The notes beneath the pieces were generated by a model. It was not told the DNA's origin. It saw only the letters and a list, made by a program, of their open reading frames with translations, and made no database searches. Positions 12,866 through 27,190 of a stretch of DNA of 64,000 nt are shown one piece after another (the stretch's first letter is position 1; every line of letters starts with the position of its first letter). The position numbers and the translations under genes are program-made. This DNA comes from Xaviernesmea oryzae (GTDB taxonomy: Bacteria; Pseudomonadota; Alphaproteobacteria; Rhizobiales; Rhizobiaceae): positions 396,001-460,000 of the forward strand of contig NZ_FXAF01000006.1 of assembly GCF_900177415.1 (NCBI RefSeq), written 5' to 3'.

Positions 12866-13570
12866 TCAGGCGGCGCGGACGACGCGGCTCGAAAGCGAAG
12901 ACGGCTTGTGGAGCGGCACGCGGCGGAGCATTTCCAGCGCGAAGAGGCGGGCGTTCTGCCGGGCCTTGTCGAGATTGCTGATGCGGTTCTCGTCCATCGT
13001 GTAGAGCGTGCCGCCGAGATCGAAAATGTCGCGGAAAGCGGCGCGTTCGATGATGGGCGTGTTGAGCACGTCGACATTGCGCTCGGCAAGCAGCATCTTG
13101 ACCGTCAGAAGGGCACGCGTCGTGACCATCGAGTTGACGCGGGTCAGCACGACCGAATGGGGCACGTGCAGGTTCGCCTTCTCTGCGAGATAGCGCAGCA
13201 GTTCCAGCACGTTCGCACCGCCTTGCGCGTCCATGGCGCAGCCCTGGATGGGGATCAGCACATGATCGGAAAGACCGATCGCCTTGGCAAGCAGCGGGCT
13301 CTGGGCGCCCGGCAGGTCGAGCACGAAATAATCGGTCTTGTGCCGGTTTTCGGAAATGTGGCGCTCGATCGAAGCGTGAGTCACATAGGAGATGACATTG
13401 AGCCTGTCGTTCGGCGGCGAGAGCTGGTGCCAGCGGGAAATCCAGTATTGCGGATCGGCATCCAGGATGGTGACGCGATAGCCTTGCTCAACGAGTTCGG
13501 TTGCGAGGAGGAGCACGGCGGTGGTCTTGCCCGCTCCGCCCTTGGTGTTGGCGAAGGTAATGACTGGCAT
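12866..13570 (-). CDS. ParA-family partitioning ATPase at the end of the chemotaxis operon
   Basis: ParA/MinD-type ATPase of 234 residues. The deviant Walker A box KGGAGKTT is at residues 10-17 within MPVITFANTKGGAGKTT, Walker A' is ILDADPQYWISRW, and DYFVLDLPGAQSPL is the Walker B region. The start at 13570 has an AGGA site; the open frame upstream lacks family features. It is read in the same direction as cheB, 115 bases behind it. In other bacteria ParA-like proteins (ParC in Vibrio, PpfA in Rhodobacter) place chemosensory arrays, so a similar role is attractive here; it could instead act on DNA like VirC1. No ParB partner is next to it. Confidence 0.85.
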   Translation of the reverse strand: MPVITFANTKGGAGKTTAVLLLATELVEQGYRVTILDADPQYWISRWHQLSPPNDRLNVISYVTHASIERHISENRHKTDYFVLDLPGAQSPLLAKAIGLSDHVLIPIQGCAMDAQGGANVLELLRYLAEKANLHVPHSVVLTRVNSMVTTRALLTVKMLLAERNVDVLNTPIIERAAFRDIFDLGGTLYTMDENRISNLDKARQNARLFALEMLRRVPLHKPSSLSSRVVRAA

Positions 13571-13685
13571 CTTGAATTCCTGTTCGGCTGCGAGCGGAAA
13601 TCGCTCTCTCACAGCACCCTCATGATGCGCTGCGTCATTCTTGCCAAACATGGTTAACGAGGTGTGAAGATCGTATCCGCAGATT
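13571..13685. other. Short gap between cheB and parA
   Basis: 115 non-coding bases on the path from cheB to the ParA gene. No hairpin terminator is evident. A TGGTTAACGAG stretch near 13652 holds a single TTAA half-site, not the full CtrA double. Whether parA has its own promoter here is open. Confidence 0.35.
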
Positions 13686-14768
13686 TTACCGGCGACGGTC
13701 TGCGGCGAGGATTTCCCGGGCGATGTGATCGAGCGGCACGACCTTGTCGACCCCTCCATGGGCGATCGCTTCCTTCGGCATGCCGAAGACGACCGATGTC
13801 GTCTCGTCCTGCGCTATCGTGTAGGCGCCCGCCTGATGCATCTCGTTCATGCCGCGCGCTCCGTCGTCGCCCATGCCGGTCATGATGACGCCCATCGCGT
13901 TGGCGCCGGCCGATCGCGCAGCCGAACGGAACAGCACGTCGACCGAGGGGCGATGCCGGCTGACGAGCGGCCCGCTGCGGATCGACACTTCGTAGCGCGC
14001 GCCGCGCCGTTCGAGCAGCATGTGCCGGTCGCCGGGGGCGATCAGCACGTGACCGCGCAGCACGGGATCGCCGTCAGCGGCTTCCTTCACTTCGACCTCG
14101 CAGAGCCCGTTGAGCCGTTTGGCAAAGGCGGCTGTGAATCTTTCCGGCATATGCTGGACGATGACCATGCCCGGCGAATTGGCGGGCAACGCTTCGAGAA
14201 GCTCTCGAAGTGCCTCCGTGCCGCCGGTGGAAGCGCCGACGCAGACGACCATTTCCGTCGTCTTCGCCATGGCGCCGATCTTCGGCGGCGGCAGCACGGC
14301 GTCGGCGGTCAGCTTGGCCGTCGTGCTTCCTTCCGCCATGCGGGATCTGCGCAACTTGGCGACGCGCGCCCGGGCAGCACCCTTCACGACGGTGCGGATG
14401 CGGTCGGCGGATTCGGCGAGATGATCGGCCGCGCCGATCTTCGGCTTCAGGATGATGTCGACGGCGCCGGCTTCCAGCGCCTGCATCAGCGTTTCCGATC
14501 CGCTCTCGGTCAGCGAAGAGCACATCACGACGGGGATCGGATGCTGCGCCATCAGCTTGCGCAGGAAGGTGATGCCGTCCATCTGCGGCATCTCCACGTC
14601 GAGGGTGATGACATCAGGCACCTCGTCGCGGATTTTCCGCGCCGCCATGAAGGGATCGCTCGCCGCGCCCATCACCTCGATGTCGGGATCCGCCGACAGG
14701 ATCGCCGTCAGTGTCTGCCGGACGCTTGCGGAGTCATCGATGATCAGAACACGGATCTTGTCGCCCAT
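13686..14768 (-). CDS. cheB: Chemotaxis protein-glutamate methylesterase CheB
   Basis: CheB, 360 residues. It removes methyl groups from chemoreceptors and deamidates glutamines when phosphorylated by CheA. The N-terminal receiver has the acidic pair D11-D12 and the phospho-acceptor D57 ([12 protein letters not shown]); the C-terminal esterase domain has the catalytic serine in [15 protein letters not shown], the histidine in QHMPERF, and [10 protein letters not shown] linker rich in charged residues joins the two. It lies directly behind cheR (6 bases), as in most che operons. Confidence 0.96.
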
Positions 14769-14774
14769 GACGCC

Positions 14775-15632
14775 TCATATCCGCTTGAAGATGGTGTTCG
14801 CGACCTGACGGATCGGCAGGTTGAAGCCTGCGACCGTCTCGGAATGGCCGATGAAGAGATAGCCGCCGGGAAGCAGGCAATCGCAAAGCCGGCTCAGCAC
14901 ATGCTGCTGCGTCGCCTTGTCGAAATAGATCAGCACGTTGCGGCAGAAGATGATGTGCATCCGGTCGCCGATCGGGTAGGAGGCATCCATCAGGTTGAGG
15001 CGGGCGAAACCCACATGCGACCTCAGCTTCGGTGTGATGCGCATTTCCTGACGTCCCTTGTCGACCGGCCGCAGGACATATTTCCGCATCATCTCCGCCG
15101 GCACCGGCTCCAGGAGTTCCGGGGAATAGATGCCCCGCTGCGCCTTCTGAAGCACGTCGGTGGAAAGGTCGGTGGCAAGGACGAAGAAGTCCCGTTCCGG
15201 CGTGGTGGAGGCCAGGAATTCCGAGAGCACCATGGCCATCGTATAGGGCTCTGCGCCGGTGGAGCAGGCGGAGCTCCAGGTGCGGATACGCCGCTCGCCG
15301 TAGCGCTTGACGATATCCGGCAGCGCATGCTGCATCATGTAATCGAAATGCTTCGGCTCGCGGAAGAAGTCCGTCTTGTTGGTGGTGACGGCATCGATGA
15401 GATGGATGGCTTCCGCTTCGATGCCGCCGTGCTTGAAGAGATAGTCGCAATAGCTGTCGAAGGTCGGAAGGCCGGTGGCCCGAAGACGCCGGCGCAGGCG
15501 CCCTTCGAGCATCGTCACCTTGGTGATCGGCATCTTGATGCCGCTATAGTCGTAGATGTATTTCGCAAGGAGATCGAAGCTCTTCTTGCTCAGCCGGTCA
15601 TCCAGCGGCTGACTTCTGGCTGCTGCATTCAC
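14775..15632 (-). CDS. cheR: Chemotaxis receptor methyltransferase CheR
   Basis: CheR, 285 residues. It methylates receptor glutamates using S-adenosylmethionine. An N-terminal helical domain (LLAKYIYDYSGIKM) leads into the Rossmann methyltransferase core with RIRTWSSACSTGAEPYTMAM (split; the SAM loop is SACSTGAEP) and IIFCRNVLIYFD. No TPR extension is present. The gene sits between cheW and cheB on the minus strand, 20 bases after cheW. None of the three neighbouring MCPs ends in an obvious NWETF-like tether, so CheR probably binds its methylation helices directly. Confidence 0.95.
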   Translation of the reverse strand: MNAAARSQPLDDRLSKKSFDLLAKYIYDYSGIKMPITKVTMLEGRLRRRLRATGLPTFDSYCDYLFKHGGIEAEAIHLIDAVTTNKTDFFREPKHFDYMMQHALPDIVKRYGERRIRTWSSACSTGAEPYTMAMVLSEFLASTTPERDFFVLATDLSTDVLQKAQRGIYSPELLEPVPAEMMRKYVLRPVDKGRQEMRITPKLRSHVGFARLNLMDASYPIGDRMHIIFCRNVLIYFDKATQQHVLSRLCDCLLPGGYLFIGHSETVAGFNLPIRQVANTIFKRI

Positions 15633-15652: not shown

Positions 15653-16144
15653 TTACGCTACTGCTGCTTGCGGGCTCATTTCGGTCAGGGCCGTGCCCGA
15701 ATCCGAGAAGAGCCGGGCGAGGTCGACGATGACCACGAATCCGCCGTTCCGCCGCACGACGCCGGCGATATAGTCAGACCGCCAGCGTATGCCGATGTCC
15801 GGGGCCGTTTCGATCTGGTCGCCGCGGAAGGGAACCACTTCATAGACCCTGTCGGCGACGAGCCCCAGCACCAGCACCCGGTCGGCGACCGGCACGTCCA
15901 GCACCAGGATGCGCGTATGCGGCGTCTTGACGGTGCGGCTCAGGCCCAGCCGCAGCCTCAGATCGATCACCGGCACGCCCTGGCCCCGGACGTCCCGCAG
16001 TCCCAGCAGATAGTCCGGGCCGTGCGGAATCTTGAAGGGCTCCTCATGGTCCAGGATTTCGCGGACGACCTCCACGGGAACGGCGAAGATTTCCTCGCCG
16101 AGACTGAAGGTGACGAACTGGGATTCGGAGGATGTGGTCGCCAT
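15653..16144 (-). CDS. cheW: Chemotaxis coupling protein CheW (first copy, operon distal)
   Basis: CheW, 163 residues, the adaptor that joins MCPs to CheA in the inner-membrane array. The SH3-like fold is read from FVTFSLGEEIFAVPVEVVRE, LLGLRDVRGQGVPVIDLR and the terminal VVRRNGGFVVIVDLARLF. Its ATG overlaps the TAA of the MCP before it by one base (TAATG), so its translation is coupled to that receptor. A second, longer CheW is encoded next to cheA in the same operon; they are clearly different in sequence, so different receptor or kinase preferences are possible. Confidence 0.94.
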   Translation of the reverse strand: MATTSSESQFVTFSLGEEIFAVPVEVVREILDHEEPFKIPHGPDYLLGLRDVRGQGVPVIDLRLRLGLSRTVKTPHTRILVLDVPVADRVLVLGLVADRVYEVVPFRGDQIETAPDIGIRWRSDYIAGVVRRNGGFVVIVDLARLFSDSGTALTEMSPQAAVA

Positions 16145-18081
16145 TATGCGCTCTCCTTGAAGTTTTGGTCGTCGGAGTCCGGTCCGCCCATGGACATGTC
16201 GAGGGCGAAGCCCTTGGCACGGGCCTGCTGGGCTGCGACGGACTGGTCGGTTGCCGGGCGTGCGGTTGCGGACGCTTTCTGAGCCGGCCTGGCGGCAGGC
16301 TTCGCCGCCGGTGCGGGCTTTGCGGCTGGCTGCTGCTGGCGTGCCTTGGCCGAAGCCTGATCGACCCTGAAGAAGGCGATGGAGGCCTGCAGTTCCTCGG
16401 CCTGCGCGGCAAGCTCTTCGGATGTCGCCGACATCTCCTCCGAGGCACCGGCATTCTGCTGCGTCACCTTGTCGAGCTGCTGGATCGCCTCGTTGATCTG
16501 CGCCGCACCGATATCCTGCTCGCGGCAGGCGGCGGAGATCTCCGAAACCAGTTCGGCGGTCTTCTGGATGTCCGGCACCAGCCGGTTCAGCATCTCGCCG
16601 GCCTCGGTCGCCACCTGAACGGTCTCGCCGGAAAGGGCACTGATCTCGGCTGCCGCCGCCTGCGAACGTTCGGCAAGCTTGCGCACTTCGGAGGCGACGA
16701 CGGCAAAGCCCTTGCCGTGCTCGCCGGCACGGGCGGCCTCGACGGCGGCGTTGAGGGCGAGGAGGTCCGTCTGGCGGGCGATCTCCTGGACGATGGAGAT
16801 CTTCTCGGCGATGGTGCGCATGGCGGTGACGGCGCGGCCGACGGCCTGGCCGGAGGTCTCCGCGTCCTTCGACGACTGGCGGGCGATCTTCTCGGTCTGG
16901 GCTGCGTTGTCGGCGTTCTGCTTGATGTTGGCGGCCATCTGCTCCATGGAGGCGGAGGCTTCTTCGGCGGAGGAGGCCTGCTCGGTAGCGCCCTGCGAAA
17001 GCTGTTCGGAGCTTGCGGAAAGCTCCTGGCTGCCGGACGAGACGTTGTTGGATGCGGCCAGCGCATCGGCCACGACACCGCGCAGGCGCTCCACCATGCT
17101 TTCCAGCGCCAGCCCCAGCGTATCCTTGTCAGACAGCGGCTTCGGCGAAACCGTCAGGTCGCCGTTGGCGATCTGGTCGGCGACATCCGAGGTGGCACGC
17201 AGGTTCGAGACCATGTTGCGCATCGAAATGCCGAGCGTGTCTTTCGCCGACAGAGGCTGGGGATCGACCGAAAGATCGCCGTTGGCGATCCGGTCGGCTA
17301 TGCCCGCGGTGTTGCGCAGGTTGGCCGTCATCCGGTTGACCGTCTCCACCAGATCCTTGATCTCGTCATTCGTATTGACTTCGACGGACTGATCGAGGTC
17401 GCCGATCGCAACCGCGTTGGCAGCCGTGGCGATCTTCGCCAGCCCCCTGTTGATCGTGAGCGCCATCCAGACGGCGGCGGCGAAGCCGATCAGCAGCGAT
17501 CCGGCCGCAAGCCCGATCATCATCATGAAGGCGGATTCGAAGAGCCTGTCTGCAATCCCGTCGGATTCCTTGATGCTCGCTTCGGTGAGCGAGCCGATAT
17601 CGGCAACCAGCGCATCGAGCTTGTCCGACGCGATTGCCCCTTCCGTCTGGTTGACTTCGATGGCGGCCATCGTCTGCCCGGATGCCGCCAGCGACAGGAC
17701 GCGATCGCTGATGGTGACGTAGCCGCTCCAGAAGTCACGAACGGCTTCCCATTTCGGCTTGAAGGCATCCGGGGCATGCCGCAATCCCTCGGAGAGCGTT
17801 CGCTCGAAACCCTGCCGTTCCTCGGCAACGAGAGCGCGGGCCTTGGCGGCGCGCTCGGCATTGGTCGCCAGGAGGAGATCGCCTTCCGCAAGGCCGAGAC
17901 CGTCGAAATGCGCCGCGAGATCGTTGGCGAGATCATCCTGATGGATCGGTCCTTCGATCATTTCGTTGCGCAGATCGTTCATGTGCTGCAGGCTCGAAAT
18001 ACCGAAATAGGCCGAGGTCGCACTGCACAGGATAAGAATACCGAAGGCTGCCGAAAGCTTCGTCTTGATCGTCAGACGCAT
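16144..18081 (-). CDS. Methyl-accepting chemotaxis protein with three HAMP units
   Basis: Membrane chemoreceptor, 645 residues. TM1 is at about 10-30, a helical periplasmic sensor runs to about 182, TM2 is at about 183-208. Three HAMP units follow in tandem: about 209-256, 257-296 ([17 protein letters not shown]) and 297-336 ([17 protein letters not shown]). The signalling hairpin has the canonical tip [20 protein letters not shown] and methylation-type helices [13 protein letters not shown] and [16 protein letters not shown] Pro/Ala/Lys-rich linker leads to the end [11 protein letters not shown]. The DNA from 16168 to 17181 is identical, apart from one base, to the next receptor gene. Ligand unknown. 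Confidence 0.94.
16168..17181. repeat. Copy 1 of a near-identical MCP signalling-domain tract
   Basis: 1014 bases covering the signalling domain and last HAMP of the first MCP. Aligned by eye with 18193-19206 (offset 2025) it shows a single difference, G at 17164 against A at 19189, while the flanks diverge at once (the N-terminal sensors are unrelated). Such sharp edges point to recent gene conversion or duplication of the signalling part only. A shorter part of it is shared with the third MCP. Confidence 0.85.
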
Positions 18082-18168
18082 GTGATTCCCTTTCTTCCGC
18101 TTTGACTGCGTGTCCGTTCAGAGAATTCGTGGTTTGCCGGCTACCCGTGTGGGCAGCCGGCATAGGGA
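18082..18168. other. Inter-MCP gap with a GC-rich hairpin
   Basis: 87 bases between MCP1 and MCP2. GCCGGCT and AGCCGGC (about 18137-18162) form a perfect 7-base stem around an ACCCGTGTGGGC loop that can itself pair. No T-run follows on the coding (minus) strand, so it may modulate mRNA stability or read-through rather than terminate. Confidence 0.4.
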
Positions 18169-19998
18169 TCAGGCGCTTGCGCGGAAATTCTCGTCGTCGG
18201 AGTCCGGTCCGCCCATGGACATGTCGAGGGCGAAGCCCTTGGCACGGGCCTGCTGGGCTGCGACGGACTGGTCGGTTGCCGGGCGTGCGGTTGCGGACGC
18301 TTTCTGAGCCGGCCTGGCGGCAGGCTTCGCCGCCGGTGCGGGCTTTGCGGCTGGCTGCTGCTGGCGTGCCTTGGCCGAAGCCTGATCGACCCTGAAGAAG
18401 GCGATGGAGGCCTGCAGTTCCTCGGCCTGCGCGGCAAGCTCTTCGGATGTCGCCGACATCTCCTCCGAGGCACCGGCATTCTGCTGCGTCACCTTGTCGA
18501 GCTGCTGGATCGCCTCGTTGATCTGCGCCGCACCGATATCCTGCTCGCGGCAGGCGGCGGAGATCTCCGAAACCAGTTCGGCGGTCTTCTGGATGTCCGG
18601 CACCAGCCGGTTCAGCATCTCGCCGGCCTCGGTCGCCACCTGAACGGTCTCGCCGGAAAGGGCACTGATCTCGGCTGCCGCCGCCTGCGAACGTTCGGCA
18701 AGCTTGCGCACTTCGGAGGCGACGACGGCAAAGCCCTTGCCGTGCTCGCCGGCACGGGCGGCCTCGACGGCGGCGTTGAGGGCGAGGAGGTCCGTCTGGC
18801 GGGCGATCTCCTGGACGATGGAGATCTTCTCGGCGATGGTGCGCATGGCGGTGACGGCGCGGCCGACGGCCTGGCCGGAGGTCTCCGCGTCCTTCGACGA
18901 CTGGCGGGCGATCTTCTCGGTCTGGGCTGCGTTGTCGGCGTTCTGCTTGATGTTGGCGGCCATCTGCTCCATGGAGGCGGAGGCTTCTTCGGCGGAGGAG
19001 GCCTGCTCGGTAGCGCCCTGCGAAAGCTGTTCGGAGCTTGCGGAAAGCTCCTGGCTGCCGGACGAGACGTTGTTGGATGCGGCCAGCGCATCGGCCACGA
19101 CACCGCGCAGGCGCTCCACCATGCTTTCCAGCGCCAGCCCCAGCGTATCCTTGTCAGACAGCGGCTTCGGCGAAACCGTCAGGTCGCCATTGGCGATCTG
19201 GTCGGCAATCGTAGCCGTGTTCCGGAGATTGCCGGTCATCCGGTTCATGGCGTTGATGAGATCGCGGATTTCGTCATTGCTCGGATGCTGGACGTCCTGG
19301 TTGAGGTCGCCGATGCTGACGGCGTCCGCGAGGCCGACGGCGCGCTTCAATCCGCGGGAGATGTTGAGCAGGATCCAGACGGCACAGGCAAAGGACGCGA
19401 CGATCAGGATACCGGTCATGGTGACCAGCATGTTGCGCGACTGCAGATATTGTTCGTTCGTCGAGGCGTCCGTTTCGGCGACGTTGCCCGTCACCGTATC
19501 GTTCAGTTTTTCCAGCACGGTCAGGAGCTGCACCGTGACCTCTTGGCCTTCGCCCATGGAGATCATGCCCGCCTGGTTGTTGGATTCAAGCGTGTTCTGC
19601 CGGGCGAGTTCCGCGACGCGGTCCTGCAGAGCGATCCACTTGGCGGAAAGATCGGTGAATTCGGACATATAGTTCCGGATTTCCGGATCGTCGGAGCGGC
19701 TCAGGTTCTCGTGCAGCTTCCTGATCAAGTCGCGCTGCTGCGAAATCTCGGCGACGTAACCGGCGATCTTCTGCGGATCGGTATTGATGATGGCGTCTTT
19801 TTCCGAGCGGATGGAGCGCAGGACGGCATCCGACAGATCGCCGGAATCGCGCAGGTTGGCGACCGGGCCGGACACCATGACGGTGATATCGCTGTTGAGC
19901 GACGACAGATTGTAGATTGACAGACCGGCCATGGCCAACGTCAGGGCGACGATGAAGCTGAAAACCAGTCCGAGCTTCAGTTTGATAGTGAGGCGCAT
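18169..19998 (-). CDS. Methyl-accepting chemotaxis protein with two HAMP units
   Basis: Membrane chemoreceptor, 609 residues. TM1 is at about 9-30, the periplasmic helical sensor at about 31-189, TM2 at about 190-213. Two HAMP units (213-259 and 260-300) connect to the same signalling domain as its neighbours, with tip [20 protein letters not shown]. The end is [11 protein letters not shown]. The sensor is unlike those of MCP1 and MCP3 apart from the general four-helix look, so it should see a different ligand. It lies in the middle of the three tandem receptor genes of the che operon. The HAMP2 and signalling DNA are shared with MCP1, the signalling DNA also with MCP3. Confidence 0.94.
18193..19206. 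repeat. Copy 2 of the near-identical MCP signalling-domain tract
   Basis: Partner of 16168-17181 (1014 bases, one mismatch by eye). Its inner part, 18380-19073, also matches 20388-21081 of the third MCP without a difference that I could see. The order of sharing (MCP1-MCP2 long, MCP2-MCP3 shorter) suggests stepwise exchange between neighbours. Confidence 0.85.
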
Positions 19999-20179
19999 CG
20001 GATTTCCTCTGGATTGCGATCGAAATCAGGTCGGACCACCGCAAAACGGCGGTCCAGCAATAGAGAAGACCGATACATTCACCCTTCTGCCATTATCCGG
20101 TTTTCCCGGATGGTTGCCCGTCTGCATGCGGGCAGCGATTCCCGGGCCTTTCATGTGGCCCGGGATTGTTTTTCTTTTG
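19999..20179. other. Inter-MCP gap with tandem hairpins, T-run on the opposite strand
   Basis: 181 bases between MCP2 and MCP3. GCCCG/CGGGC arms lie at 20116-20133, and a perfect CCCGGGCC/GGCCCGGG stem with an 8-base loop at 20141-20164 is followed by ATTGTTTTTCTTTT on the plus strand. As drawn, the second is a terminator for plus-strand (antisense) transcripts, whereas the genes are on the minus strand, where it would instead be a 3' stabilising hairpin. Confidence 0.45.
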
Positions 20180-21880
20180 TCACGCGCTTGCGCGGAAATT
20201 CTCGTCGTCGGAGTCCGGTCCGCCCATGGACATGTCGAGTGCGAAGCCCTTGGCGCGGGCCTGCTGGGCTGCGACGGAATGATCCTGCTTGTGGCTCTGC
20301 GGCACAGAACGCTGGGCGGGTTTCGCCGAGGGCTTTGCCGCGATCGGAGCCGCTGCCGCCGCATGTTTCGCCGTCTTGGCGGTTCCGGCCTGATCGACCC
20401 TGAAGAAGGCGATGGAGGCCTGCAGTTCCTCGGCCTGCGCGGCAAGCTCTTCGGATGTCGCCGACATCTCCTCCGAGGCACCGGCATTCTGCTGCGTCAC
20501 CTTGTCGAGCTGCTGGATCGCCTCGTTGATCTGCGCCGCACCGATATCCTGCTCGCGGCAGGCGGCGGAGATCTCCGAAACCAGTTCGGCGGTCTTCTGG
20601 ATGTCCGGCACCAGCCGGTTCAGCATCTCGCCGGCCTCGGTCGCCACCTGAACGGTCTCGCCGGAAAGGGCACTGATCTCGGCTGCCGCCGCCTGCGAAC
20701 GTTCGGCAAGCTTGCGCACTTCGGAGGCGACGACGGCAAAGCCCTTGCCGTGCTCGCCGGCACGGGCGGCCTCGACGGCGGCGTTGAGGGCGAGGAGGTC
20801 CGTCTGGCGGGCGATCTCCTGGACGATGGAGATCTTCTCGGCGATGGTGCGCATGGCGGTGACGGCGCGGCCGACGGCCTGGCCGGAGGTCTCCGCGTCC
20901 TTCGACGACTGGCGGGCGATCTTCTCGGTCTGGGCTGCGTTGTCGGCGTTCTGCTTGATGTTGGCGGCCATCTGCTCCATGGAGGCGGAGGCTTCTTCGG
21001 CGGAGGAGGCCTGCTCGGTAGCGCCCTGCGAAAGCTGTTCGGAGCTTGCGGAAAGCTCCTGGCTGCCGGACGAGACGTTGTCAGAGGCGGCCAGCGCATC
21101 CCCGACGACGCCGCGCAGGCGTTCGATCATGGTGTTGACGTAGCCGAGCAGTTCACCGATCTCGTCTTTGGTGGTGATCGTCGCAAAGCGCGTCAGATCG
21201 CCGTCGGAAACGTTCTGCACGGCGGCCACGGCGTTGCGCAGGCCCTTGTTGATCGAGAACGCGATCCAGATGGCGGCCAGAACGGCGATCACGAGGGCGA
21301 GGCCGGCGACCGAGATCATGATCGTACGGGTTTGGACATAGTCCAGGTCGGCCTGGTCGTCGGCCTGAGCGAGCCGCGTTTCCTCCAGGTTCACGACCTC
21401 CGTCAGAAGCGCGTCGATCTCGTTGGTGACGGTGCGCGCCTCATTGATCGAAACTTGCTGTGCGCCGGCCGTGTTGCCGGCCAGCATGAGTGCGCGGATA
21501 CGATCGTCCTGCTTGCGGAACTCCGTGGTGAAGCCTTCGAGCTTCGCCCAGTTCGCCTTGCCCTGCTCGGTCGCCAGCGCCAGGACCGACTTGAAGGTCT
21601 CGTCGAAATGCCGGCGCGCATCGTCGGACGAGGAGATGTAGCCCTGCATTTCGCTGGGGCTCGTCGCCATCAGAAGGTTTTTCTGCTGCCGGATCTGCTG
21701 CAACTGGGTGACGTTCAGCATCTGCGCGAGCTTGAGGCGTTCCGCCGGACCGGTGATGACGTCTTCCAGTGCCGTGTTGAGGTTGCTGAGGCTGAAAATG
21801 CCGTAAGCTGCCGTGGCGAGCAGCATCAGGATGATGAAGCCGAATGCCGAGGCCAGTTTCAATTTGATCGTTGCGCGCAT
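20180..21880 (-). CDS. Methyl-accepting chemotaxis protein with one HAMP unit
   Basis: Membrane chemoreceptor, 566 residues. TM1 is at about 10-30, a helical periplasmic sensor at about 31-186, TM2 at about 187-209, a single HAMP at about 210-256 ([19 protein letters not shown]), then the signalling hairpin with tip [20 protein letters not shown]. The C-terminal linker (Lys/Ala/Pro-rich, with [17 protein letters not shown]) differs from that of MCP1 and MCP2, but the last residues [11 protein letters not shown] are again shared. First of the three receptor genes in the operon, 24 bases behind the second CheW. Ligand unknown. Confidence 0.94.
20388..21081. repeat. Copy 3 (shorter) of the near-identical MCP signalling-domain tract
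   Basis: 694 bases that match 18380-19073 (offset 2008) with no difference seen by eye, ending sharply at the start of the signalling helices. A further block of about 100 bases at the C-terminal end (from about 20182) is also shared with MCP2 with a few changes. The linker between the two blocks is unique to this gene. Confidence 0.82.
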
Positions 21881-21904: not shown

Positions 21905-22420
21905 CTAAGCGTGATTGCTCACGGCTGCGGAGTGATCGTGCTGAGCAGAAAAAATGACTTGAAGATTGGGTATGATGATGAATTCGGTTCCCCGCTTGAC
22001 CAGGCAGTCGATGAAGTCCGGACGCCAGCGCATGCCGACGCTCGGCGGCGGTTCGCCGGCGGCGCGCAAGAGGGTGGTCACTTCGTGCACCTTGTCGGTC
22101 CGGATGCCGGCAAGCACCGGCTCTCCGTCGATATCGATCTCGATGACGATGATGCGGCTGTCGATCGTCGGCTTCGTTGCTTCCATGCCGAACGCAAGGC
22201 GGATATCGGCGAGCGGGATGACCTTGCCGCGGAAGTTGATGACGCTGCCGACGAAGGCCTTGGCGCCGGGCACGATCGTCTCCGGCAGGAGATCGAGGAT
22301 TTCCTGCACGGTGACGGCCTCGAGCGCGAACATCTCGCCGGCGATGTCAAATGTCAGGACTTCCAGCTCGTCGCGGCCGTCCCAGAGGTCTTCGGAAATT
22401 TTTCTGACTGCTTCGTTCAT
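21905..22420 (-). CDS. cheW: Chemotaxis coupling protein CheW (second copy, next to cheA)
   Basis: CheW, 171 residues, with a 20-residue N-terminal extension before the SH3-like core. Core stretches are LTFDIAGEMFALEAVTVQE, VGSVINFRGKVIPLADIR and CLVKRGTEFIIIPNL. The start overlaps the cheA stop by 4 bases (ATGA), so it is made together with the kinase. It stands before the three MCP genes. Together with the other CheW of the operon it gives two non-identical adaptors for one kinase. Confidence 0.94.
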   Translation of the reverse strand: MNEAVRKISEDLWDGRDELEVLTFDIAGEMFALEAVTVQEILDLLPETIVPGAKAFVGSVINFRGKVIPLADIRLAFGMEATKPTIDSRIIVIEIDIDGEPVLAGIRTDKVHEVTTLLRAAGEPPPSVGMRWRPDFIDCLVKRGTEFIIIPNLQVIFSAQHDHSAAVSNHA

Positions 22421-24429
22421 CCCGCCGCCCGCAGATGCGCCTCCTGCTGTTGTCCTTCCGCCACCAGATGGCCGACATCAAGGATCAGTGCCACGTCGCC
22501 GTCGCCGAGAATGGTCGCACCGGAGAAGGTCGCGACGTCATGATGCAGCTTCGACATGGCCTTGATGACCGTCTGGTGGTCTCCGATGATCTGGTCGACC
22601 ACCAGGCCCACGCGTTCCGAACCGGTCGAGATGACGACCACCTTCTGGAACGGGTCCGGCTTGGTGCCGGTGCGGAAGAGATCGCGGAGCCTCAGGAAAG
22701 GCACGAGGCTGTCTCGCAGCGAAATGAAGCTGCGGCCGCGCGAGCGCATGTCCTCCTCGATCGAAAGCTCCAGGCACTCTTCGACCGCCGAAAGCGGGAT
22801 GACGTAGCGGCCGGAACCGACGCGGACGAGCAGGCCGTCGATGATGGCGAGCGTCAGAGGGATCGCCAGCGAAATCTCCGAACCCTTGCCCGGATGGCTC
22901 GCGACGTTGATCGTGCCGCGCAGCGCGTCGATCGTCCGCTTGACGACGTCCATGCCCACACCGCGGCCGGAAAGGTTGGTGACCTGGCTTGCTGTCGAGA
23001 AGCCCGGCTGGAAGATGAGCTGGTAAAGTTCCTGGTCGGTGAGGCTGGCATTGGCCGCGACGAGGCCGGAGGCTTCCGCCTTGGCCCGGACGCGCTCCTT
23101 GTTGATGCCGCGGCCGTCGTCCTTGATGGTGATGATGACCTCGCCGGCCTGCTGGCGGGCGGAGAGCAGGATACGGCCGGCCTCCGGCTTGCCCGCAGCA
23201 AGTCGCTCGTCCGGCGTTTCGAGGCCGTGATCGCAGGAGTTGCGAACCAGATGCACCAGGGGATCGGCGAGGCGCTCGATGACGCTTTTGTCGACTTCCG
23301 TGCTTTCGCCTTCGGTCACAAGCTCGATCGTCTTGCCGGTCTCATGGGCGAGATCGTGCACCAGCCGTCGGAAGCGGCTGAACAGATGCGCGACCGGCAC
23401 CATGCGCAGCACCATCATCGTATCGCGCAGCTCGCCCGAAAGGCGTTCCACGTCCTCCGAAACAGCGCGGAGCTGAAGATCGCCGCTGCCGCCGGCGAGC
23501 TGGCTGAGCCGCGACTGGGCTATGACGAGTTCGCCGACGCGGTCCATCAGCTCGTCGAGCTTCTCGGCCGGCACGCGGACGTTTTCGGAGGCCTTGTTCT
23601 GCTTGGTATCGACCGGAGCGGGAGCAGCCGTAGCGGGAGCTGCCGCGCGCGAAGGTTCCACCGCAGCCGCAGCGGCAGGTTTTGGCGCTTCGATTGGTGC
23701 TTCGGGTTTGGCGGAGGTCTCGGCCATCGGATCCGGCGCCGTTTCCGTGGTGGTGATGTCGAGCTGCATCTCGTCCATGACGAAGATGAAGACGTCCTCG
23801 ATCGCCGAGCGCGGCTGAGAAGTCAGAAGCTCCACATCCCAGGAGATGTGAAGCTCGGTCGGCACGAGGAGATCGAGCGACGGGATTGCGGAGCGGTCGG
23901 CGACGATCCTGCATTCCCCGAGTTCGCGCAGCTCGTCGAGAAGCGGCAGCGGATTGGTCCCGTTCGCCATCGCGTTCTGCGGCAGGCTGAAGCGGATCTT
24001 GAAAAGTGTCTGTCCCGGCGCGGGTTTGGCGGCAGGGATGGCACTCGGGTTTTTGGCCGCTTCCACGGCGGTCCGGAGATTGGCGAGAAGCGCTTCGCTC
24101 ATCGCCTCGTGATCGCCCGTCGGCGCCTCGATGAGAGCCCGCATATGGTCCTTGGCTTCGAGGACCGCGGTGACCAGTTCCTGCGTTGCGGGCACCTCGC
24201 CCTTGCGGACCCGGTCGAAGGCCGTTTCGCAATGATGGGTAAAGGCGGCGAGGGCATCGAAGCCGAACATCGCGCCCGAACCCTTCAAAGTGTGGAGGCC
24301 GCGGAATACCGCGTCGACCTGATCCTTGTCGCCGAGGTTTACGTTGAGATCGAGAAGGCCTGACTCGATCTGTTCGAGAAGCTCGGCCGCTTCCGTTCTG
24401 AAAACCGCGATAGGATCGGGAAAGCTCAT
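22417..24429 (-). CDS. cheA: Chemotaxis histidine kinase CheA
   Basis: CheA, 670 residues. The HPt domain carries the phospho-acceptor H46 (GLHTLKGSG); a middle segment (about 130-215) may be the response-regulator docking domain; an Ala/Pro-rich linker leads to the dimerisation helices (VPAEKLDELMDRVGELVIAQ), the HATPase core (LVHLVRNSCDHGLE, DDGRGI, GRGVGMDVVKR) and a C-terminal CheW-like domain (SAVEECLELS to the end). It phosphorylates CheY and CheB according to MCP state. ATGA overlaps join it to cheY before and cheW after, so STAS, CheY, CheA and CheW are translated as a coupled unit. Confidence 0.96.
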   Translation of the reverse strand: MSFPDPIAVFRTEAAELLEQIESGLLDLNVNLGDKDQVDAVFRGLHTLKGSGAMFGFDALAAFTHHCETAFDRVRKGEVPATQELVTAVLEAKDHMRALIEAPTGDHEAMSEALLANLRTAVEAAKNPSAIPAAKPAPGQTLFKIRFSLPQNAMANGTNPLPLLDELRELGECRIVADRSAIPSLDLLVPTELHISWDVELLTSQPRSAIEDVFIFVMDEMQLDITTTETAPDPMAETSAKPEAPIEAPKPAAAAAVEPSRAAAPATAAPAPVDTKQNKASENVRVPAEKLDELMDRVGELVIAQSRLSQLAGGSGDLQLRAVSEDVERLSGELRDTMMVLRMVPVAHLFSRFRRLVHDLAHETGKTIELVTEGESTEVDKSVIERLADPLVHLVRNSCDHGLETPDERLAAGKPEAGRILLSARQQAGEVIITIKDDGRGINKERVRAKAEASGLVAANASLTDQELYQLIFQPGFSTASQVTNLSGRGVGMDVVKRTIDALRGTINVASHPGKGSEISLAIPLTLAIIDGLLVRVGSGRYVIPLSAVEECLELSIEEDMRSRGRSFISLRDSLVPFLRLRDLFRTGTKPDPFQKVVVISTGSERVGLVVDQIIGDHQTVIKAMSKLHHDVATFSGATILGDGDVALILDVGHLVAEGQQQEAHLRAAG

Positions 24430-24794
24430 CTGCCCAGCACCTTCCGGACGATCTTGACCAGGCTTTCCGGGTCGAACGGCTTGGTGAGCCAGCCGGTGGC
24501 GCCGGCGGCCTTGGCCTGTTGCTTCAGGTCGTTGTCGGATTCCGTCGTCAGGAAGATCACGGGAACGCCCGTATGGGCAGGCATCTTGCGCAGCTCACGG
24601 ATCATGGTGAGCCCGTCCATGTTCGGCATGTTGAGATCGGTGACGATCATGTCGAACTGGCCGGCGTTCAGCTTGGCGATGCCGTCCATGCCGTCGACCG
24701 CCTCGGTGACCTGATAACCGGCATTGCTCAGCGCAACGCGCGTCGTCAGGCGGATGCTTGCCGAATCGTCGACTGTAAGGATGCTGGCGCTCAT
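24426..24794 (-). CDS. cheY: Chemotaxis response regulator CheY
   Basis: Single-domain receiver, 122 residues. The acid pocket is D9-D10, the phospho-acceptor is D53 (MIVTDLNMPNMDG), the signalling Thr is in IFLTTES and the lysine in LTKPFDP. The start at 24794 (MSASILTVDD) is picked because it overlaps the STAS stop as ATGA; a longer frame upstream is the STAS gene in another frame. Expected to bind the flagellar switch or a phosphatase-like sink when phosphorylated by the CheA that follows it. Confidence 0.95.
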   Translation of the reverse strand: MSASILTVDDSASIRLTTRVALSNAGYQVTEAVDGMDGIAKLNAGQFDMIVTDLNMPNMDGLTMIRELRKMPAHTGVPVIFLTTESDNDLKQQAKAAGATGWLTKPFDPESLVKIVRKVLGR

Positions 24795-25120
24795 TGCATT
24801 CCCCCTTGATGAAGCCAGAATTTTGCGTCCTCTTCGGACATGCCTTCGAGAAAGCCGCCGCGCTGCAGGGCGTCGAGTACCGCGCCGTCGGCGGGCTCTG
24901 CGAGCGTTATGTGTTTTCCCGCCGTGCCGGCGTAGATCCGTGTTGCTTCCATGAGCTGGATGAAGCTGATGTCGGCTTGACAATCATCCCCAATTTCGAT
25001 CGTCGCGGATGTATTTTTATCGATGAATTGAAGAATTTCCTGCTGGACGGCTGCAATGGAGCGAACAGTCAAGTTCTGCGGCAACTGGAGGAAATCGTCT
25101 TTAACATTGGAAGCCGGCAT
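24791..25120 (-). CDS. STAS-domain protein heading the che operon
   Basis: Small STAS (sulfate transporter and anti-sigma antagonist) domain, 109 residues. The position of the phosphorylatable serine of SpoIIAA-like proteins is occupied by S52 in ADISFIQLMEA, preceded by the typical acid. LAEPADGAVLDALQRGGF matches the end of the STAS fold. First gene of the che operon, ATGA-coupled to cheY. STAS proteins usually bind a kinase/phosphatase switch partner; none is encoded here, so it may be a scaffold or link to another sensory system. Start at 25120 has GGGGTAAAA upstream. Confidence 0.85.
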   Translation of the reverse strand: MPASNVKDDFLQLPQNLTVRSIAAVQQEILQFIDKNTSATIEIGDDCQADISFIQLMEATRIYAGTAGKHITLAEPADGAVLDALQRGGFLEGMSEEDAKFWLHQGGMQ

Positions 25121-25456: not shown

Positions 25457-27190
25457 GTGGCGGTCAGGACATCCATTCTCGACGTCGCGGCAGGTTCGAC
25501 GGGCGTGCTAGCTTTCGTCGACCGGATGGAGACGGCTCGCTCCCGTATCGAGGAGCGCTTTCTCGAAGGTGGCGCCGCGCTCTTGTCGATCCTCGACGTG
25601 CTGAACAAGCTGATCGCCTCTCTCGACCAGTTGACCGGGTCGCTGGATGAGGGAACCGCGAATGCCACGATGGCCGAACTGAAGAGCACGGTCGATCGTC
25701 TTTCGCAGCTCACCGGCCTCGAAGCCGCGCGTCAGGCGGGGTTCCAGGATATCGCCAGCACGGAGCGCAAGCTCGAGCCGCAGATCGGGGAAATGCAGGA
25801 GACGTTGCGCTACCTGCGCACCTTTGCCGTGACCGCCAAGATCACCGGCGCCGGCATTGCCGATTTCTCCGGCTTCGCGGAAGAGATCCTGGGAAGGATC
25901 CAGGAAGGCACGCGGCAGGTCAACGATTTTGCCGGCAAGCTCTCGACGCTTGGCCACGGCCTCGGGCCGGTGATGGCCAAGGGAAAGGTGATCCTGGCGA
26001 GCTATGACGAGACGGTGCCGCAAATCGTCGCCGGGCTCTCCGAAGGTGCCGCCGAGATCGCCAGACATCGCAAGCTGCTCGTCGAGCGCGCCGCGAAGGT
26101 GCGCGCGGTTGCAGGCGGTATCCAGACGAAGCTCGCCTCGACGCTCTCGGCCATGCAGGTGGGGGACATCACCCGCCAGCGCATCGAACATTGCCAATCC
26201 GGCCTTCAGATCCTTTCCGATTATCTGGACTCCCCGGCAGGCGCCGCGCTCGGGGCCGAACAGCGCGAGAGCCTGTCGTTGATCGTCCGCAAGCTCGTAT
26301 CGCTGCAGCTCGACCGGTCGATTTTCGATTTCGACCGTGACACGGCCAAGATCGTTGCCACCGTTGCGAGTTTCCGTTCCGACCTGTCGGAAATCGAGGC
26401 TCTGCGCGCCACGATGAGCGATGACGACGGCCGCGAGAACGACAATGCCATCCGCCAGCTCGAAAACGGCGTGGCAGCCGCCCGCGGCGCGGTGCGCGAG
26501 ATCGAGGAGGTGGCCCGTCAGGCGGATGAGCTCAGCCGCGCGACCTGTGACATCGTCCGCGAGCTGCTCGAAGGCATCGGCATCGTCCGTGCGGTGCGTA
26601 CCGACATTCATTATATGGCGCTCAACACCAACCTGCGCTGCGGCAAGATCGGCGAGGAAGGCAAGGCGGTCAACGTCGTCACGGCCGAGTTGCGCAATTT
26701 CGCCGGCCAGCTCGATGAGACGGCGGAAAAGATCCTGACCGAACTTCAGGCGCTGGAAGCCGCCGCCAACAAGCTGATCGGCGTGCAAGACGGCGAAGAG
26801 GAGGAATGTCTCGACCAGCGCCTCGAAAAGGCACTGGAAAATATTCGCGCCGTCGGCGATCGCATGGATGCGCAGATGGCCGCTCTCGGCGAGCAGAGCA
26901 GGACGGCCGTCGGCGAGATGGATGCTTCGCTGGCGAGATTGAACTTCAATGCCGAGCTCGGCGAAGTGCTGCGCACCTGCGCCGAGGAGATGGAAATCGT
27001 GGAGGAGGTGATTCAGGCACCGGGCCTCGAAGACGCGCTTGCCGATGTCGGCGGCCGCATTTTCCGCCTCTATACGATGGTGGCCGAGCGGGAACTGCAT
27101 GCCGAAGTGCTCGGAACCGCTCCGCCGGTGGAAGCGCTCGCGGTCGCAGCCGCCATGTCCGACGAGGATATCGAGGACGCGCTCTTCTGA
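25457..27190 (+). CDS. Soluble MCP-like coiled-coil protein with an altered signalling tip
   Basis: 577 residues, no signal peptide and no membrane segment; almost wholly helical. Residues 387-418 (MALNTNLRCGKIGEEGKA, then VNVVTAELRNFAG) line up with the MCP hairpin tip LALNAAxEAARAGExGxGFAVVA but the conserved EAAR is changed to LRCG and the following pattern is altered, so coupling to CheA/CheW may be lost or special. The ends are charged (DEDIEDALF). GTG start at 25457 with GGTGAGGAAAA. It is transcribed away from the che operon across a shared promoter region. It may be a cytoplasmic receptor, a decoy or a scaffold. Family not recognised beyond the MCP-like tip. Confidence 0.75.
   Translation: MAVRTSILDVAAGSTGVLAFVDRMETARSRIEERFLEGGAALLSILDVLNKLIASLDQLTGSLDEGTANATMAELKSTVDRLSQLTGLEAARQAGFQDIASTERKLEPQIGEMQETLRYLRTFAVTAKITGAGIADFSGFAEEILGRIQEGTRQVNDFAGKLSTLGHGLGPVMAKGKVILASYDETVPQIVAGLSEGAAEIARHRKLLVERAAKVRAVAGGIQTKLASTLSAMQVGDITRQRIEHCQSGLQILSDYLDSPAGAALGAEQRESLSLIVRKLVSLQLDRSIFDFDRDTAKIVATVASFRSDLSEIEALRATMSDDDGRENDNAIRQLENGVAAARGAVREIEEVARQADELSRATCDIVRELLEGIGIVRAVRTDIHYMALNTNLRCGKIGEEGKAVNVVTAELRNFAGQLDETAEKILTELQALEAAANKLIGVQDGEEEECLDQRLEKALENIRAVGDRMDAQMAALGEQSRTAVGEMDASLARLNFNAELGEVLRTCAEEMEIVEEVIQAPGLEDALADVGGRIFRLYTMVAERELHAEVLGTAPPVEALAVAAAMSDEDIEDALF

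Follow-up and report, generated by a model that had tools for sequence, protein, structure and literature searches.

The window, as the whole stretch of DNA analyzed here is called, spans 64,000 nucleotides of the 6.07 Mb genome of Xaviernesmea oryzae. On its plus strand, an open reading frame at positions 25457..27190 begins with GTG and encodes a protein of 577 amino acids, hereafter P0001. These boundaries agree with those given in a preliminary description made from the sequence alone, and full-length relatives support the gene. The nearest named relatives at the locus, from Neorhizobium and close rhizobia, are 69-83% identical to P0001 over the full length. The preliminary description saw no membrane segment and no recognizable sensor domain, and both observations are upheld: hydropathy reveals no membrane segment in P0001 (the highest 19-residue Kyte-Doolittle mean is 1.48, versus 2.68 for one MCP of the adjacent operon), and a Pfam search of the protein finds no sensor family.

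The gene indeed lies back to back with a che operon, which occupies the minus strand. This operon encodes, in order, a STAS-domain protein (24791..25120; Pfam STAS_2 at E 0.0032, below the cut-off), CheY (24426..24794; 122 amino acids), CheA (22417..24429), CheW1 (21905..22420; 171 amino acids), three MCPs (16144-21880), CheW2 (15653..16144; 163 amino acids), CheR (14775..15632) and CheB (13686..14768), followed by a ParA/VirC1-like ATPase whose gene (12866-13759, minus strand) overlaps the end of cheB. The CheY is the only one of the operon and is the presumed substrate of P0001. By eye, the three tandem MCPs have differing sensor parts and near-identical signalling domains and C-termini, as if gene conversion had kept them uniform or they had duplicated recently. 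The listed start of the ATPase gene is probably too early, and the ATPase match starts at residue 64.

ParA-like ATPases are part of systems that position cytoplasmic chemotaxis clusters, and ParP and TlpT are positioning factors that work with such ATPases. The ParA-like gene at the operon end, together with those near the P0001 homologue in six other loci (L145, L148, L154, L155, L157 and L158), might thus hint that P0001 is a positioning factor for its neighbor. However, far members of the family (L024, L025 and L159-L168) keep the gene and its conserved motif with no ParA match in the fetched stretches, and we judge this role to be highly unlikely.

A family set of 53 open frames was gathered by similarity to P0001 (phmmer, E < 1e-17). 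The set includes the window's own copy, and 51 of its rows are distinct. Nine far members share just 18-23% identity with the window protein, and 23 columns are invariant across the 53 rows. A further 32 weaker rows were left out of the set, among which L052 qualifies as a family member through its motif and tail, and L063 falls in the wider group described below. Separately, a weak MCP-like match (L061, genome G246) is surrounded by an open frame of 24,514 amino acids, which perhaps reflects a run of Ns or a very long gene.

Two tandem MCP-like hairpins and a recoded tip

The C-terminal half of P0001 is a true MCP homologue. A profile built from 29 relatives matches the MCP of T. maritima (2ch7) at E 1.1e-16, whereas the single P0001 sequence scores 16.8 bits with Pfam MCPsignal (PF00015) against a gathering cut-off of 34.6. 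The preliminary description had recognized an MCP hairpin pattern, and the homology stands; the pattern proves to be that of two tandem hairpins, however, and not of one. Structure prediction, which had been proposed for comparison with MCP hairpins, bears this out. Hairpin 1 comprises residues 14-258 (25496..26230, plus strand), with its tip at about residues 131-135, and hairpin 2 comprises residues 267-512 (26255..26992, plus strand). In the full AlphaFold model, which was built from an 18-row alignment and is of moderate confidence (pLDDT 78.5, pTM 0.52), long helical runs, interrupted once or twice each, cover residues 14-131, 135-258, 267-395 and 399-512.

The N-terminal half is more divergent. 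Its profile matches 2ch7 at E 2.7e-5 when summed over three weak stretches, and the best single stretch (E 0.018) aligns TFAVTAKITGAGI----DFAGFAEEI with the MCP tip across a four-residue deletion. The first tip is thus four residues shorter than those of MCPs, and the MCP letters have been lost. An alignment of the two halves of P0001 (E 7.6e-4, HHalign probability 25%) matches them in this same tip register. A separate model of the N-terminal half (pLDDT 84.3) has MCPs as its top nine Foldseek matches, the best at E 1.2e-3, and in a second fold comparison MCPs appear at Z 11-12, level with unrelated helical proteins. No Foldseek match at E <= 0.001 was obtained for either the full-length or the N-half model. 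The full-length fold list is headed by unrelated long-helix proteins, so a whole-protein match says little. No solved CheZ structure stood among the 50 matches listed in each of the four fold comparisons, which does not speak against a CheZ fold. Taken together, profiles and models demonstrate two MCP-type hairpins joined in one chain, less firmly for hairpin 1. A match of the full model to a designed four-helix bundle (residues 84-449, 194 residues at 3.0 A) weakly suggests a lateral packing of the two hairpins that resembles the pairing of chains in a receptor dimer.

Some coiled-coil families also match the single protein in Pfam and NCBIfam. The preliminary description had raised the prospect of a known coiled-coil group outside chemotaxis, and a search for such a group returned weak or marginal matches only. 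ATG17_like, V-SNARE and SpiroCoCo are weak matches, and EspC (PF10824), a type VII secretion target family, is marginal, with 24.0 bits against a gathering cut-off of 23.5 over residues 405-485. EspC matches at E values up to 1 are present in 8 of 29 relatives. These candidates were all rejected as reflecting composition, because the C-half profile of the relatives matches MCPs far ahead of all else. Furthermore, the EspC stretch belongs to the MCP-like hairpin 2, and P0001 is a protein of 577 amino acids in che clusters rather than a small secretion-locus protein.

A double hairpin without a sensor calls DosM to mind. In excerpts of the reports on this protein, DosM is a natural double-hairpin scaffold that spans two baseplates and is found in F9 clusters, whose CheW is a concatenated triple one (PMC7534058), and it is mostly without sensor domains (PMC9321776). 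By analogy, P0001 might build or brace an array, possibly a cytoplasmic one, with its 234-245 motif serving as a binding surface. This is the main rival to the reading that we prefer, and it shares with that reading the two sensorless hairpins and a hairpin-2 tip that keeps the equivalents of N381, V398 and R404. We nevertheless regard it as rather unlikely. The operon here has two short CheWs (163 and 171 amino acids) in place of a triple one, and one tip of P0001 is shortened, with its MCP letters gone, while the other is recoded; the DxxxQ motif and the tail may be further differences from DosM. A scaffold would also leave unexplained the D/T/Q spacing, the C-terminal tail and the CheZ-like linking proteins discussed below. 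The scaffold role raised in the preliminary description therefore survives as a rival to a phosphatase, which is the better reading. Its further suggestion that a nonsensing role would be new for MCP homologues does not hold, because the DosM scaffold has already been described (PMC7534058).

Covalent pairs of receptor hairpins are also known as single-chain MCPs, both artificial and natural, and the natural soluble ones are described as being of unknown function (PMC4692393). In the portions of that report available to us, these proteins are discussed as receptors and not as phosphatases, so by this description they differ from our reading of P0001. For the single-chain MCP of Rhodospirillum centenum, the tripartite CheW of the Che2 cluster (PMC2890560, seen in part) would, in our reading, point to a place with F9 and DosM instead of the P0001 family.

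The tip of hairpin 2 (residues N390-R413; 26624..26695, plus strand) was compared with MCPs and across the 53 family rows. In alignment with the operon's own MCPs, the tip of P0001 reads LNTNLRCGKIGEEGKA, and R394-C395-G396-K397 takes the place of EAAR; the preliminary description, which read LRCG here, was right about the change and one residue off in its position. C395 and R413, the latter equivalent to Tsr R404 (Tsr numbering is that of our own alignment), are invariant in 53/53 rows. The equivalent of Tsr E385 is R in 46 rows and E in none, that of R388 is K or R in all 53, and that of F396 is F in none. Retained positions include the equivalents of Tsr N381, G390 and R404 (53/53 each), V398 (51/53), R394 (R or K in 51/53), E391 (E or D in 47/53) and E402 (45/53), of which E391, R394, V398 and E402 are positions that we take to be CheA/CheW interface residues. 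Because C395 is invariant, the EAAR glutamate occurs in no row and most CheA/CheW-facing positions are retained, the tip is conserved in changed form rather than decayed, and its earlier characterization as broken must be abandoned.

In Tsr, the E385-R388' pair is described as the ionic lock of the trimer of dimers (PMC8144572, seen in part). An EAAR tip with this lock is absent from the P0001 family. With no E at the E385 equivalent and no F at that of F396 in any row, normal trimer formation is not expected. Abnormal trimers are what might be expected if P0001 were a decayed MCP, or one that poisons arrays by blocking or redirecting them, as had first been proposed. This proposal seems extremely improbable, however, given that the changed tip letters are themselves conserved and that most of the residues facing CheA and CheW remain. 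The most conserved stretch of the protein is, moreover, a CheZ-like DxxxQ site, and 27 of 28 genomes retain the gene together with its che system, three of these at a site outside the cluster. P0001 might alternatively be a soluble chemoreceptor that senses a cytosolic cue, such as redox state through C395, and controls CheA. Its MCP homology and the invariance of C395 and H548 (53/53) would fit such a function, but EAAR is lost, there is no Pfam sensor domain, and we know of no sensor that consists of a lone cysteine in a tip helix; a receptor of this type is very unlikely. The preliminary description was probably correct that this MCP homologue, with its changed tip and its link to the che operon, is not an ordinary sensor.

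A CheZ-like motif and tail

Three marks that the preliminary description had overlooked distinguish the family. The first is the motif QxGDxTRQRxEH (residues 234-245; 26156..26191, plus strand), in which nine of the twelve positions (Q234, G236, D237, T239, R240, Q241, R242, E244 and H245) are invariant in 53/53 rows. The residue after D237 is I, L or V in 49 rows, and P0001 itself reads QVGDITRQRI. The family thus carries the DxxxQ of CheZ in its D-[LI]-T-x-Q context, with D, T and Q in all 53 rows. Within hairpin 1, the D237/Q241 pair is located on the second of the two long helices, about 104 residues beyond the tip, whereas in CheZ the motif lies about 35 residues beyond the turn. The second mark is YTMxxERxxH (residues 539-548; 27071..27100, plus strand), in which T540, M541, E544, R545 and H548 are invariant (53/53). 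The third is an acidic C-terminal tail, SDEDIEDALF (residues 568-577; 27158..27187, plus strand), which by sequence is of the CheZ type and ends in F in 51 rows, with two rows lacking this ending. In CheZ, the tail binds CheY.

The Q..D...Q spacing alone is not diagnostic, because the operon's own MCP has it, as do 10 of the 32 weaker rows, among which eight lack an F end. The full LQxxDxxxQRxEH form is restricted among these rows to L052 and L063, written as LQ[FI].D...QR.EH, and these are the same two that end in F.

E. coli CheZ (1kmi chain Z) carries FQD143LTGQ147VIKR and ends with QVDDLLDSLGF. Within the phylum, a Pfam CheZ search of 120 genomes gave matches in 33, and the frames from the best 25 matches were compared. 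All 25 carry [FY][QH]D[LI][TS]GQ, and their final residues are F in 18, L in 3 and another residue in 4. Three of these last four end with QSEIDALFN, SQDDIDALFD and SQEDIDALLASFD, which are near the SDEDIEDALF of P0001. Among the CheZ relatives, four from the same order or class have FQD[LI][TS]GQR[IL], and in three of them the chain closes with IDALF or IDALL and one to four further residues. For profile work, the CheZ set comprised 22 of the 25 fetched sequences (L105, L106 and L108 were left out, and L107 was kept).

Direct profile comparisons provide little to connect the close family with CheZ. Pfam CheZ (PF04344) gives no match in the close family, and our own CheZ profile finds nothing there below E 0.03. 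When HHalign compares the whole family or its N-half with the CheZ set, the alignment falls elsewhere than the motif. A value of E 0.0029, meant to represent the CheZ relatives at order or class level but obtained with L107 alone, is given no weight.

A wider group of proteins supplies the missing link. An N-half profile (A3) was run over 299 genomes of the phylum and found matches in 96, from which 30 loci were rescored; 28 open frames at E 1e-5 make up the wider-group rows, with L109-L113 set aside as close family. Q..D...Q is present in 25 of the 28 rows, probably by chance in L137, and an F end in 23, all of which carry Q..D...Q. The remaining rows are L117 and L137, which have the spacing without F, and three short paralogues with neither. 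Three members (L118, L120 and L122) are single-hairpin MCP-like proteins, apparently membrane-anchored when judged by eye, with ordinary IEAARAGE tips followed by QFQD[IV].RQ and an IELF ending. For L120, Pfam gives MCPsignal at E 4.5e-26 and CheZ at E 8.1e-4, the latter below the cut-off; for L118, it gives MCPsignal with no CheZ match. Our own CheZ profile reaches E <= 0.0031 in the wider group for L120, L127, L128, L131 and L132 only (9e-6 to 3e-3). In each of these, FQDLTGQ of CheZ is aligned onto the motif, which in L120 reads FQDITRQ; L127 and L128 are alike at the motif.

Two side observations concern this group. A form resembling YTMxxERxxH occurs in 16 of the 28 rows. Also, L129, L130 and L133 contain neighboring pairs of short MCP-like genes, one of each pair with the DxxxQ spacing and an IELF end and its sister with neither feature and the ending QQSFDSASV.

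The register of the resemblance was examined with ungapped windows of 80 residues around the motif, compared as profiles with the 22 CheZ sequences. In exact register, 72 distinct windows give E 2.3e-5, the 22 wider-group windows among them E 3.5e-7 and the 50 family windows E 0.0093, whereas 27 windows taken from other parts of these proteins give E 0.013 or worse. With the nine motif columns fixed and the rest permuted, these scores were reached in 0, 0 and 3 of 100 trials for all, wider-group and family windows, respectively, and rotating the flanks by heptads reached each score in 0 of 29. The windows were picked by the motif, which favors a match of D and Q and is offset in part by the permutation control. 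MCP windows served as an extra control (4, 2 and 2 sequences, E 0.06-0.2) and are too few to count. On this evidence, the wider group resembles CheZ beyond the motif itself, and for the close family any such additional similarity is borderline. P0001 has no significant whole-domain similarity to CheZ, as there is no Pfam match and the family-only profile stands at E 0.0093. Its connection to CheZ runs instead through the wider group, in which an MCP hairpin and FQDITRQ occur together.

Linkage to che genes and proposed function

Flanking genes were examined for part of the matched loci. In a first set of loci, che genes stand beside the P0001 homologue in 24 of 24. The wider-flank loci of family and far members (L142-L169) have che genes in 25 of 28, the exceptions being L150 and L153, with none, and L152, with weak CheY-like matches only. 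Eight of nine fetched stretches around wider-group members (L170-L178) also contain che genes; the 7.9 kb stretch of L173 has none. A CheZ profile applied at E 1e-3 to 62 loci (L002-L025 and L141-L178) found nothing except two wider-group members, and Pfam CheZ has no match in the window's genome.

Co-occurrence with the kinase is nearly complete. Across 151 sampled genomes of the bacterial family, 27 have both P0001 and the CheA, one has P0001 only (G128), one has CheA only (G094, where CheA is in two pieces) and 122 have neither (Fisher p 1.5e-27, kinship ignored). The thresholds (E <= 1e-7 for P0001, at least 700 bits for CheA) were chosen after the lists had been seen, and a CheA score of 570-614 bits, as seen in four genomes, was treated as absence. 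In G003, G017 and G120, the gene has been retained though it lies away from its CheA, by about 68 kb or on another contig. The G128 homologue (L146) lies beside STAS and weak CheY and CheB matches in a genome that shows no such CheA; the cluster may be in decay or have been rearranged.

We therefore propose, with somewhat better than even confidence, that P0001, a soluble single chain built like a receptor, attaches to the CheA/CheW array and acts as a CheY-P phosphatase. The positions that the hairpin-2 tip keeps toward CheA and CheW would mediate docking, and the loss of the ionic lock would keep P0001 out of normal trimers of dimers. D237 and Q241, on the second helix of hairpin 1, could provide catalysis as their counterparts do in CheZ, with the acidic, F-ending tail catching CheY-P. 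A che cluster with one CheY and no recognized CheZ might in this way carry its own array-docked phosphatase. The phosphatase reading predicts directly that D237, Q241 and the ten-residue tail matter.

A broader and more tentative idea is that Pseudomonadota possess a class of receptor-fold phosphatases that combine array-joining tips, a CheZ-type site and a CheY-catching tail, so that the state of the array would control phosphatase as well as kinase. Its members might include single hairpins with ordinary tips (L118, L120 and L122), double hairpins such as P0001 and longer proteins with no obvious MCP tip (L128 and L132).

Because P0001 lacks tested features of both MCPs and CheZ, it is best filed under neither, as a variant that would work like CheZ on a receptor scaffold. 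With the ordinary MCP signalling domain (PF00015) it shares the hairpin fold, the tip register and several residues on the CheA/CheW side, but it has RCGK for EAAR, neither sensor nor membrane anchor, and a score under the Pfam cut-off. With CheZ (PF04344, 1kmi chain Z) it shares D-[IL]-T-x-Q on a long helix, an acidic tail ending in F and the che context, but it has MCP-type hairpins of about 114-129 residues per helix, a motif farther from the tip and the added YTMxxERxxH, and Pfam CheZ does not match it.

A parallel that favors the phosphatase reading is found in the CheT proteins of rhizobia. CheT of Sinorhizobium meliloti is reported to be a DXXXQ phosphatase of CheY with a predicted CheZ-like structure (PMC12654446, seen in part). 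The main che region of the window's genome (L141) encodes CheY, CheA, CheR, CheB, a further CheY and a CheT-like protein (L141:14424-14813, plus strand), so labelled from its gene place and DxxxQ, with no Pfam family assigned. This protein contains QGIDLAVQ and ends AGDFDFF, so CheT too may use a CheZ-like tail. CheT and P0001 have DxxxQ in common, and the CheT-like protein of this genome also has an acidic tail, ending FDFF, but CheT has about 129 amino acids versus 577 and belongs to the main che operon, and BLASTP detects no similarity between P0001 and this CheT-like protein (best E 0.31).

From the excerpts consulted, DXXXQ phosphatases (CheZ and CheT) and sensorless double-hairpin receptors (DosM and single-chain MCPs) are each already known, and no report of an MCP-fold CheZ-like phosphatase was found in the open-licence literature that was searched. 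Where rhizobial che systems lack CheZ, the CheY-P signal is believed to be terminated by a phosphate-sink CheY together with CheS and CheT in the main operon (PMC8429497; PMC12654446; both seen in part). For the second che cluster, which P0001 adjoins, nothing of this kind was recognized. If the proposal is true, a receptor-shaped phosphatase inside the second cluster would fill this gap, and would show that the MCP fold can be converted into a signal-termination enzyme.

Under the phosphatase reading, public annotations including 'type VII secretion target' would also need correction. Of 15 plasmid records with a P0001 match, two bear this label, one reads 'chemotaxis protein', two read 'hypothetical protein' and the other ten are unlabelled under the match. 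The homologues on Shinella plasmids (H4 and H5) are labelled 'type VII secretion target', apparently from the marginal coiled-coil match to EspC, and this is likely a misannotation.
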